A stretch of DNA of 64,000 nucleotides from Veillonella seminalis (GTDB taxonomy: Bacteria > Bacillota > Negativicutes > Veillonellales > Veillonellaceae), in assembly GCF_003992065.1 (NCBI RefSeq), contig NZ_RQUZ01000002.1:1-64000 (forward strand), given 5' to 3'. The translations under genes and the position numbers were made by a program. Of the stretch, positions 30,769-34,876 are shown one piece after another (the first letter of the stretch is position 1; the number at the start of each line of letters is the position of its first letter). The notes beneath the pieces were generated by a model. That model was given only the letters and a program-made list of their open reading frames with translations. It did no database searches and was not told the origin of the DNA.

Positions 30769-32322
30769 TTAGTCTAAAGGTTTGCGAACTACGTCGATGA
30801 TGGTACCGTCACGATATTCAACGATAGCTACTACATCTTCGTCTTTATCGCTTACGGTAATACCTTCAGGTTTACCTACCAAGTCAAATGCCAATTTCTG
30901 TAATTCTTCAATTGTGTAGATTGGCAAATTAGAATCTTTGAAGCGTTCGATAAGATCGGTACGACGAGGGTTAATAGCAATACCGCGTTCAGTTACGATA
31001 ACGTCTACGGATTCACCCGGTGTAATTACTGTCTGTACGCTGTCGAGAATCATCGGTAAACGGCCGCGAACGAGCGGACAAGTAATAACTGTGCATTTAG
31101 CACCGGCTGCTGTATCACTGTGACCGCCGGAAGCCCCCATGAGGATACCGTTGGAATCAGTCATGCAGTTAACATTGAAGTTCGTATCGATTTCGGTAGC
31201 ACCTAAGAATACTACGTCGAGGTAGTTCGTCATGTTGTCGGTCCAAGGATCGGCATACATGGAAGCACTGATTTCAATATGATTTGGGTTTCTATGTAAA
31301 GAAGCGGCCGCATCAGTATCGAATGTTTGGGTATCATAGATAGCGTTAATTAAACCGTCTTCCAACATACCTGCCAAAATACCGGTAGCACCACCGATAC
31401 CGAAACCGGCTTTAACGCCCTGTTCCTTTAATTTCTGACCGATAAATTTAGCAACTGTCAATGGAGCTCCGCCGGCACCTAACTGGAAGGAGAAACCTTC
31501 TTTGATGATGCCTGCCTGATCCAAGAATTCAGCCGCCATTTCAGCGATTTTAATCTGTACCGGGTTTTTAGTGAAACCAACGGCACCGGAAGCAATACCT
31601 GCAGGATCGCCGATAGCTTCTACTTCAACGATGTAATCAACATCAGTTTGAGGTACGGAGTATGGATATACATAGTCAACCAAGTTATCGGTAATGGCTA
31701 CGGTTTTATCAGCATAGTGGGAGTCAATCATGGCATAGCCGAGAGCACCGCAAGCGGATTTACCCTGCATGCCGGTGAAGTTACCGCGACGATCGCAAGT
31801 AGGTGCACCCATGAAAGCTACGTCGATGTGAAGTTCGCCGGATACGATGGCACGAGCACGACCACCGTGAGAACGAATCACTACCGGACGTTTTAATACG
31901 CCTGGGTTCTTCGTTAAGAATTTACCGAGTGCATCACGTAAACCGGATGTTTCGATAGCAGTTACCGTACCGTCTTTGATCATGTCAATCAAGAAATCAT
32001 GGCAAGGACTCAAGGAGCTGGATGCAACTGTAATATCTTTAATACCTTTAGCTTGGATGCGTTCCATAACCATTTTCATAACATAGTCACCATTACGGAA
32101 ATGATGGTGGAACGATACGGTCATACCGTCTTTCAAGCCGGTCTTTTCAATTGCTTCATCAATAGAAGCTAATACTTTATCGGCACCGCCTTGATTGTAT
32201 TTGGCAACCGGACGACCGGCACGGTGCATTTTAGGCTCAACAGCGAACTCGCCTTGATACAGTTCACGACCTTCAAGAGCCGGAATATTCATTGGAATTT
32301 CGCGATTTGCTTTATTTAACAT
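30769..32322 (-). CDS. citF: Citrate lyase alpha subunit (citrate CoA/ACP-transferase)
   Basis: Alpha subunit, a family I CoA-transferase-like protein that swaps acetyl for citryl on the carrier thiol. 517 residues, usual length. Visible are SFHHHFRNGDYV, SHGGRARAI, FMGAPTCDRRGN, and the glycine-rich FQLGAGGAPLTVA and GIGGATGILAGMLEDG motifs. The start at 32322 overlaps the CitD-CitE stop by 11 bases and has AAGGAG nine bases ahead; an in-frame ATG six codons upstream overlaps that site and is rejected. The overlap implies coupled, near-stoichiometric synthesis with the beta subunit. Confidence 0.93.
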   Translation of the reverse strand: MLNKANREIPMNIPALEGRELYQGEFAVEPKMHRAGRPVAKYNQGGADKVLASIDEAIEKTGLKDGMTVSFHHHFRNGDYVMKMVMERIQAKGIKDITVASSSLSPCHDFLIDMIKDGTVTAIETSGLRDALGKFLTKNPGVLKRPVVIRSHGGRARAIVSGELHIDVAFMGAPTCDRRGNFTGMQGKSACGALGYAMIDSHYADKTVAITDNLVDYVYPYSVPQTDVDYIVEVEAIGDPAGIASGAVGFTKNPVQIKIAEMAAEFLDQAGIIKEGFSFQLGAGGAPLTVAKFIGQKLKEQGVKAGFGIGGATGILAGMLEDGLINAIYDTQTFDTDAAASLHRNPNHIEISASMYADPWTDNMTNYLDVVFLGATEIDTNFNVNCMTDSNGILMGASGGHSDTAAGAKCTVITCPLVRGRLPMILDSVQTVITPGESVDVIVTERGIAINPRRTDLIERFKDSNLPIYTIEELQKLAFDLVGKPEGITVSDKDEDVVAIVEYRDGTIIDVVRKPLD

Positions 32323-33556
32323 TGATTTCAGCTCCTTCATCTACTTCTACTTTAATCCCGGCAGCACGTGCTTTGTCCACGATACGTTGTGCACGTACTA
32401 CGATAGGACCATCGATCATTTTACCGTCTACGGCGATTACGCCTTTATTATTTTTCAAAGCATCAGCATAGCTGTTCAATACTTTTACGGAATGAGCAAT
32501 TTCTTTTTCATCCGGAGTAAATACTTTATGAGCTAATTTAATCTGGCTTGGGTGAATACAGGATTTACCGTCAAACCCGAGAGCTTTAATGTACTGTACT
32601 TCTTCAACAAAACCTTCAGGATCTTTAACATCGGAGAATACGGTATCAACGCAACGGATGCCGGCTTCACGAGCAGCCAATAAGATGGATTGACGAGCGA
32701 ATGTCAATTCAACGGCCGGTTTGGATTTACCGGTACGAAGATCGGCACGATAATCTTCAGCGCCTAAAGCGATACCTACAACACGTGGTGCGTGGCAAAT
32801 TTCACGAACATTATAAAGACCTTTAACGGATTCGATAGCTACGATAATATTGATCGTACCTTCTTCCCAACCGTTAGCTTTTTCTACTTCTTCAATCTTA
32901 CGGGCTACGATTTCAACTTCGGAAACATCTTCCGTTTTAGGAATACGAATCAAGTTTGGCTTAGCCGGTACGATTACATCAAGGTCATCATAGCCGTAAG
33001 GCGTCTGAGTCGGATGGTTAATACGTACTACTGTTTCGGATCTGAAGGTCATGCTTTTTAACGCTTCAGCAGTCATCAAACGAGCCGTATCCTTTTCCGT
33101 TACAGGAATGGAGTCTTCAATATCAAACATCAAGCTGTCAGCACCATGGATGTCAGCGCTGTTAATCATTTTGGGGGTATTGCCCGGTACGAACATCATG
33201 CTACGGGAAATACGTGCTTTAGCTGCTTCACTTAAAGGCAAAGTTTTAACTTCTACCGGACGAGTTTCGTCATGAGCTGCAGCCGCTTTTGGTTCGGAAC
33301 CGCGTTCTAAGGCACCGAGTACACGAGCTTTAATCGCATAATCCCAAGCAGCTTTATCGTCGGCAATAACTTTTACACCGTCATAACCGGCTTCTTTAAC
33401 CGTTTTTACGATTAATTCCTCAATGTGTTTACCATACTGGCGTTGAACTTTAGAAGTTAATTCTACTTCAATACCGGCGGCAATCGGTTCAACTGTTACA
33501 AGACAATCTTGCTTTTCGTCAAAACCGGCAGTCGCTGCCTTTACTAATTTGTTCAT
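32312..33556 (-). CDS. citDE fusion: Fused citrate lyase gamma (carrier-like) and beta subunit
   Basis: Residues 1 to about 90 align with CitD, the acyl carrier subunit (GIEVELTSKVQRQYG, ADDKAAWDYAIKARVLGALERG); residues 115-414 are CitE, citryl-CoA/ACP lyase (RSMMFVPGNTPKMI, MFDIEDSIP, RINHP, AIESVKGLYN, GAEDYRADL, GKSCIHPSQI). The two are normally separate genes. In the CitD half, the LESSD motif whose first Ser carries the phosphoribosyl-dephospho-CoA group reads DEKQD: no Ser is present. The enzyme may therefore use free CoA thioesters or rely on a different carrier. GGAAAGGATG precedes the ATG. Confidence 0.9.
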   Translation of the reverse strand: MNKLVKAATAGFDEKQDCLVTVEPIAAGIEVELTSKVQRQYGKHIEELIVKTVKEAGYDGVKVIADDKAAWDYAIKARVLGALERGSEPKAAAAHDETRPVEVKTLPLSEAAKARISRSMMFVPGNTPKMINSADIHGADSLMFDIEDSIPVTEKDTARLMTAEALKSMTFRSETVVRINHPTQTPYGYDDLDVIVPAKPNLIRIPKTEDVSEVEIVARKIEEVEKANGWEEGTINIIVAIESVKGLYNVREICHAPRVVGIALGAEDYRADLRTGKSKPAVELTFARQSILLAAREAGIRCVDTVFSDVKDPEGFVEEVQYIKALGFDGKSCIHPSQIKLAHKVFTPDEKEIAHSVKVLNSYADALKNNKGVIAVDGKMIDGPIVVRAQRIVDKARAAGIKVEVDEGAEINVK

Positions 33557-33982: not shown

Positions 33983-34876
33983 TTAAAACTTTATCGTTAC
34001 CGGTGAATTATCTTTATAATAGTCTTGTACATAATCTATAAAGGTTTTAACCGCAATAAGCTTATCACTCACTTCATTGAAGTATAAAAACGTACTACGC
34101 ACCCACGGTTCACCGTTCTTCTGATAAATCGGCTCTACATAGATACCTTCATCCTTGCAAGAGCCAAGTCCCAAATACGGTAAAATAGACCAGCCGAGAC
34201 CTTCACGCACGAAGTGACGGCATGTAACCATAGAGTCCATTTCCATAGCCGCTTCATGACTCTTCGGCAGATTTTCATTGCACCATGTGTCAAGAACGTT
34301 CGTAATGGAACCGTCCGAACGATATTGAATAAGTGGTAAGTCTGCCAACTCTTCAATGGTAACCGGATCCTTATAAACCAAACAATAAGGTTCTTCAAAA
34401 AGTTTAATACTATTACTTGCTTCTTTATAATTACCGCGTGCTATAGCTACCGCTACTTCGCCGCTATTAAACATCTTATTAACATGAGAACTGTGACCGG
34501 TTTTTACTTGAATATGGATATTCGGATACTGTTTCGTAAATTTCGCCAGCAAATGCGGCAGTTGATAGTCCGCAAAGTTAATCGACGAGCCGATTTTCAA
34601 TGTTCCTTGAATCTCTCCGCTCATTTCGCCGAGAGCCTGTTTTAAACTTTCCATTTCCTGCAACATACGTCGGCAATAGGTATGGAATACTTCCCCCTGC
34701 GGTGTTAACGTAATGCCTTCACTGGTTCTTATAAGTAGCGGACTGCCCAAATCTTCTTCCAAATGGCGCAATCGATAACTGAGCGCCGGTTGGGATAAAA
34801 ATAGCTTTTCAGCGGCCTTAGTAATATTGCCTTCTTCAACAACCGTTACAAAGGTTTGCCATTCTCGTTCATCCAT
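33983..34876 (-). CDS. LysR-family transcriptional regulator (probable citrate regulator)
   Basis: A 297-residue LysR protein: winged HTH (REWQTFVTVVEEGNITKA, LFLSQPALSYRLRHLEEDL) followed by the effector-binding domain (LKIGSSINFADYQLPHLLAKF). It sits immediately upstream of the citDE-citF operon on the same strand, so citrate or a related carboxylate is a reasonable inducer, but nothing in the sequence proves it. GAGGAGGG lies ahead of the ATG. It starts 11 bases after the end of the BI-1 gene and may be cotranscribed with it. Confidence 0.87.
   Translation of the reverse strand: MDEREWQTFVTVVEEGNITKAAEKLFLSQPALSYRLRHLEEDLGSPLLIRTSEGITLTPQGEVFHTYCRRMLQEMESLKQALGEMSGEIQGTLKIGSSINFADYQLPHLLAKFTKQYPNIHIQVKTGHSSHVNKMFNSGEVAVAIARGNYKEASNSIKLFEEPYCLVYKDPVTIEELADLPLIQYRSDGSITNVLDTWCNENLPKSHEAAMEMDSMVTCRHFVREGLGWSILPYLGLGSCKDEGIYVEPIYQKNGEPWVRSTFLYFNEVSDKLIAVKTFIDYVQDYYKDNSPVTIKF

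Follow-up and report, generated by a model that had tools for sequence, protein, structure and literature searches.

An operon of Veillonella seminalis encodes a citrate lyase-like system whose acyl carrier subunit, CitD, has a lysine exactly at the position of the serine to which the prosthetic group is normally attached. The operon probably specifies a prosthetic-group-free citrate lyase that works on free acetyl-CoA and citryl-CoA and keeps CitD as a scaffold; its activity is unmeasured. Citrate lyase is a textbook enzyme, with its function tied to an unusual covalent cofactor. CitX and CitG build and attach this prosthetic group and CitC acetylates it (PMC10798043).

The window analysed here is a stretch of 64,000 nucleotides from one V. 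seminalis contig (NZ_RQUZ01000002.1), and the features of the operon within it are listed in Table 1. All are transcribed from the minus strand in the order LysR-type regulator, citDE, citF and CitMHS symporter, with an overlap of 29 nt between the end of citDE and the start of citF. The regulator beside the operon is conserved in Veillonella. The family search detected no citX, citG or citC in the window operon, and a search of Rfam around the operon gave no match.

Table 1. Coordinates of the citDE locus and its neighbours in the V. seminalis window.
Feature	Position	Strand	Evidence
citDE, CitD-CitE fusion (gamma carrier-like and beta lyase subunits), 414 aa	32312..33556	-	ORF and family matches
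CitD-like domain, residues 1-90	33287..33556	-	AlphaFold2 mean pLDDT 93; best match MdcC 5vit_C, Z 10.5
Lys15 codon AAG, motif GFDEKQD, prosthetic-group Ser position (MdcC Ser25)	33512..33514	-	sequence, alignments, offset
CitE (citryl thioester lyase) domain, residues 113-402, catalytic residues intact	32351..33220	-	family matches, residue alignment
citF, alpha subunit (acyl/CoA-transferase), 523 aa	30769..32340	-	TIGR01584 675.3 bits; 2hj0, 1xr4
CitMHS-family citrate:proton symporter, 442 aa	29250..30578	-	TIGR00784 277 bits, cut-off 260
LysR-type regulator, upstream of operon	33983..34876	-	nearest named family CcpC, below its cut-off

Residues 3-91 of the citDE product were assigned to CitD (TIGR01608, 66.2 bits, cut-off 63.5; PF06857, 70.5 bits) and residues 115-401 to CitE (TIGR01588, 340.8 bits; HpcH_HpaI, 219 bits). 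A first-pass annotation, made from sequence alone, had proposed a CitD-CitE fusion at this locus, and this part of it held. The CitE half remains under its equivalog cut-off of 443.4 bits, and CitF exceeds its own cut-off of 501.45 by 174 bits (PF04223, 607.8 bits). All catalytic residues reported for the CitE superfamily (PMC3832036) are kept: E147/D148, R178, E242/D268 and D382 are present and, in the alignment, invariant in 44 homologues. The first-pass annotation had stated that the lyase half keeps its family motifs. Two other identities failed. The RipC itaconate-pathway lyase model was matched at only 167.8 bits (NF038242, cut-off 375), and the criteria of a malonate decarboxylase are not satisfied, with lysine at the MdcC Ser25 position and with CitF and CitE as partners, not MdcA, MdcD and MdcE. 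Measured against canonical CitDEF, the system satisfies the criteria of a CitF subunit, CitE catalytic residues and the CitD fold and family, and fails those of an attachment serine and of maturation enzymes encoded with the system.

The motif of the window protein reads G11-F-D-E-K15-Q-D17; a canonical CitD encoded elsewhere in this genome has G-T-L-E-S-S-D. The earlier claim that DEKQD stands in place of LESSD without a prosthetic-group serine also held, since Lys15 occupies the attachment position exactly and no serine occurs in residues 1-33. The domain has only S35, which the canonical CitD shares, and one further serine at its end. In the alignment with homologues that the first-pass annotation had proposed, lysine was present in every Veillonella and Pectinatus CitD with a readable motif, and chance or a sequencing error as its source is therefore excluded. 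All 28 Veillonellaceae genomes searched have a Lys-type CitD, mostly as a separate gene. In the fusion clade the residue after the motif is a cysteine, Cys18, but in most homologues this position is occupied differently, usually by Ala or Val. Cys18 is therefore not a conserved replacement thiol; another thiol is not excluded. Within CitD, two columns track the lysine type, namely an acidic residue two positions before the lysine (usual, not universal) and Tyr or Phe at column 78. A search for columns of CitE or CitF that change along with the lysine gave no signal comparable in clarity to that in CitD. Other losses of the serine are single cases, to Thr in genome G510, Ala in G394 and Pro in G444. 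At loci L138 and L141 (genomes G444 and G445) the CitD motif GTEDSGD or GTEESGD keeps the serine together with the acidic residue of the lysine type, and CitX was not found; such proteins could represent an intermediate state.

The relatives were fetched from reference genomes and comprised Veillonella or Veillonella-like contigs, two Pectinatus and one lone Virgibacillus CitE-like protein. Among them the CitD-CitE fusion is restricted to the V. ratti/V. intestinalis group and the window, which refines the earlier statement that the fusion is uncommon. In other Veillonella, citD is a separate gene of 88-89 aa directly before citE, its stop overlapping the citE start (junction AATAATG in V. montpellierensis and CATAATG in V. 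parvula). Within the genus citD is under purifying selection (dN 0.010-0.039 against dS 0.13-0.43). An alignment that combined the fusions with stand-alone CitD and CitE sequences was dropped, its CitD rows being misplaced. An independent fusion of reverse order, CitE-CitD with CitD C-terminal and the Lys-type motif GTDRKGD, was seen in genome G232 (L102:14324-15598), where it adjoins citF and ADP-ribosylglycohydrolase genes.

Modelling of the CitD domain, also proposed by the first-pass annotation, showed that the CitD/MdcC fold is kept. The best structural match, MdcC, aligned over 85 residues at 2.2 Å; a sequence search for solved relatives of CitD also recovered MdcC, weakly (E 0.48). From the aligned ranges (model 1-87 on chain 11-97) and a profile-alignment offset of 11 at profile position 14, without a printed residue pair, we infer that Lys15 corresponds to MdcC Ser25 and that it lies in the same exposed loop as this cofactor-bearing serine. 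In malonate decarboxylase that loop carries the cofactor and MdcC is the bridging subunit (PMC5534430), which gives a structural reason for keeping CitD. The likeness to MdcC (PDB 5vit/5vj1) thus covers the common fold, the equivalent position and a subunit that bridges transferase and decarboxylase parts; the differences are that MdcC bears phosphoribosyl-dephospho-CoA and that its partners are MdcA and MdcD-MdcE in place of CitF and CitE. The AlphaFold model of the whole fusion gives no domain docking, because it is confident for CitE only, with the CitD part at pLDDT 30-50 on a shallow alignment.

The maturation genes follow the carrier type. In 26 of the 28 Veillonellaceae genomes only Lys-type CitD was found, without CitX, CitG or full-length CitC, and this absence of CitG and CitC from Lys-only genomes is established in the Veillonellaceae only. 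CitX (PF03802) and CitG (PF01874) occurred in two of the 28, and CitC exceeded its cut-off in the same two. These are the window's genome, which was searched by family profiles only, and one close relative, and each has a second CitD with the LESSD motif. Across the 28 genomes, prosthetic-group enzymes are thus present only where a canonical carrier exists to be charged. Weaker CitC matches, mostly frames of 165-200 aa aligned at model positions of about 110-220, are most likely phosphopantetheine adenylyltransferases, judged by size and range. MdcG_N as a substitute for CitX returned nothing, controls included, and is uninformative.

In the window's genome the canonical genes lie on another contig, C15, as citD-citE-citF-citG with a divergently arranged LysR gene, citC and citX; the locus (L003:4461-13194) also has a transporter and an unidentified protein of 346 aa. 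This set was acquired or retained only in this clade, because it is absent from most Veillonella. A separate intact citD gene expressed with the operon had been named in the first-pass annotation as a refutation, and this is half met: an LESSD citD exists, with its own citE, citF, citG, citC and citX. It is not required by the Lys-type system, because it belongs to the other operon and because V. ratti, V. intestinalis, V. parvula and other relatives have none.

A wider scan for CitD and CitX covered 398 genomes at the phylum level and 380 at the class level, the residue at the serine position being read from the fetched CitD sequences, which at the class level were obtained in part, not in full. 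CitX was present in none of the 36 Lys-only genomes, whereas 77 of the 90 genomes with a Ser-type CitD had it, the latter made up of 5/5 genomes with both types and 72/85 with the Ser type only (Fisher p 6e-21 for Lys-only against Ser-type, uncorrected for relatedness). In a tree-aware pair test at most five independent pairs were available, too few for significance; with both-type genomes left out two to three agreed and none disagreed. Because 13 of the 85 Ser-only genomes also gave no CitX match, a missing CitX alone is no proof of a missing prosthetic group.

The replacement arose repeatedly. The Lys rows of a 69-row CitE tree form four groups: Veillonella/Pectinatus with G758/G759 (group 1), G368/G408/G072 (group 2) and the second copy of G027 with G428/G443/G456/G473 (group 3), all well supported, and G232 (group 4), which meets a long branch and is of unsure placement. 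The AU test on this tree rejected placing all Lys rows together (p 4e-6) and three Lys groups together (p 9e-6); among pairs, groups 1 and 2 together were rejected (p 0.003), as were 1 and 3 (0.023), and 2 and 3 were borderline (0.052). The CitF tree agrees that several Ser-Lys changes are needed. At least two changes from Ser to Lys took place, and the number is probably three or four, provided that CitD by itself did not move between operons. The group 3 copy of G027 (contig C19, L103:7757-10462) is a second, distant Lys-type citDEF in a Veillonella, with the motif GSENKGD; a fragment of a DASS carrier and an amidohydrolase gene lie close by.

The genes around the operons include citrate-related ones. 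The window operon lies beside the CitMHS symporter and the operons of V. parvula and V. montpellierensis beside a DASS carrier, and 2HCT carriers stand beside the Lys-type operon in G758 and G759, with PEPCK also in G758. In group 2, a PrpF-family isomerase and isocitrate dehydrogenase adjoin the operon of G368, isocitrate dehydrogenase that of G408 and aconitase that of G072. From these neighbourhoods, without activity data, we infer that citrate is likely the substrate in the window's lineage. Lys-type operons of group 3 have DASS, amidohydrolase, class III CoA-transferase and HMG-CoA-lyase-like neighbours, and may use another acid. Counting against a citrate lyase, Veillonella is described as not fermenting citrate. 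In V. dispar, citrate lyase is among the functions with genes changing expression (PMC10100942), and beyond this remark the open-access literature searched offered nothing on how Veillonella uses citrate. Acidaminococcus fermentans ferments citrate (PMC3035267).

In the proposed mechanism, CitF would be an acetyl-CoA:citrate CoA-transferase that takes free acetyl-CoA and yields citryl-CoA plus acetate. The CitE half would then cleave citryl-CoA to oxaloacetate and acetyl-CoA, and the acetyl-CoA would re-enter the cycle. The CitD domain would carry no acyl group, would bridge CitF and CitE and may help to dock CoA. The conserved lysine is a candidate partner for a CoA phosphate, replacing the lost phosphodiester link, a hypothesis without direct evidence; such pairing could explain the repeated choice of lysine, and a structural reason would serve equally. 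The reading is economical because there is no serine and no CitX, CitG or CitC. Characterised free-standing CitE-like enzymes act on free CoA thioesters (PMC3832036), and activity towards acetyl-CoA and citryl-CoA is reported for isolated citrate lyase subunits (Dimroth and Eggerer 1975, cited in PMC3832036). The first-pass annotation had argued that an unchargeable carrier would force the use of free CoA thioesters or of another thiol. This is supported, and comparative genomics favours free CoA because CitX is missing from all 36 Lys-only genomes, and CitG and CitC also from the 26 Veillonellaceae; there is no biochemical proof, and free CoA use and the roles given to the scaffold and the lysine remain inferred. 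A bolder reading is that the Lys type is a repeatedly evolved class in which tethering was abandoned, the lysine binds free CoA (for example its 3'-phosphate) and the carrier became a CoA-docking scaffold; in this full form we lean slightly against it.

CitD might still be a carrier, with a different thiol cofactor (lipoyl-like, for example) linked to the lysine as an amide by another enzyme. The lysine is invariant within its type, recurs at one site and lies in the exposed loop of the modified serine, and DEKND resembles lipoyl-lysine hairpins. However, the genes adjoining the operon include none recognised as coding for a modifying enzyme, and structurally the domain comes closest to MdcC rather than to a lipoyl domain, so that we consider this explanation unlikely. 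Also unlikely is another substrate or the synthetic direction, in which the enzyme would be a lyase of citramalate, 3-hydroxy-3-methylglutarate or a similar acid, or would form citrate from oxaloacetate and acetate. The sub-threshold CitE score speaks for it, as do the class III CoA-transferase, HMG-CoA-lyase-like or amidohydrolase neighbours of another Lys-type group; against it stand the margin of CitF above its cut-off, the CitMHS symporter of the window and the 2HCT, PEPCK, aconitase or isocitrate dehydrogenase genes beside operons of relatives.

Two further explanations are very unlikely. Service in trans, by which the CitD of the canonical operon would work with the CitF and CitE of the Lys-type operon, draws on the intact canonical citD and whole maturation set in the window's genome, but for the relatives it is difficult to maintain, since canonical CitD, CitX and CitG are all missing from 26 of the 28 Veillonellaceae genomes, and the fusion ties the Lys-type domain covalently to CitE. 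Decay of the operon, leaving CitD functionless, would be consistent with the loss of a textbook functional residue and with Veillonella reportedly not fermenting citrate; it is opposed by the strong purifying selection on citD, by the intact citE and citF alongside it in the loci read, and by the fixation of the same residue in separate lineages.

The prosthetic-group-free citrate lyase proposed here shares with the ATP-independent CitDEF citrate lyase (EC 4.1.3.6; Klebsiella and the C15 operon) three subunits in the order citD-citE-citF, a CitF above its cut-off, the CitE catalytic residues, the CitD fold, a citrate-type transporter and a LysR regulator. It differs in the lysine at the attachment site, usually with the acidic residue two before it, in the absence of citC, citX and citG from the operon and, in most relatives, from the genome, and in the fusion of CitD to CitE in one clade. 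With the CitE-like lyases malyl-CoA lyase, CLYBL and RipC it shares the TIM barrel and the catalytic residues. Of these enzymes, malyl-CoA lyases act on free acyl-CoA, which is also the proposal for the window system. All three, in contrast, stand alone without CitF and CitD, and the window CitE is far under the RipC cut-off. A cofactor-free Lys-type citrate lyase was not described in the open-access literature searched, where most subscription papers are missing. If the proposal is true, a swinging-arm enzyme has reverted to a diffusible carrier, with the cofactor, its attachment residue and three maturation genes lost in whole lineages; annotations of a citrate lyase acyl carrier protein in Veillonella would be functionally wrong, and a simple three-gene citrate-cleaving enzyme would be available for engineering.

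Two minor observations were made during the survey. A clade of citrate-lyase-like operons (L067, L068, L069, L070, L074 and L075, in G030, G373, G182, G151, G413 and G394, respectively) has a CitE match of 230-236 aa in place of the usual ~290; its genomes gave no CitX match, and the CitD serine is kept in five of the six, the sixth reading GTPDASD. Genomes G495, G498, G499, G501, G707 and G733 each have five to eight CitD-like genes, and those read have the Ser motif.
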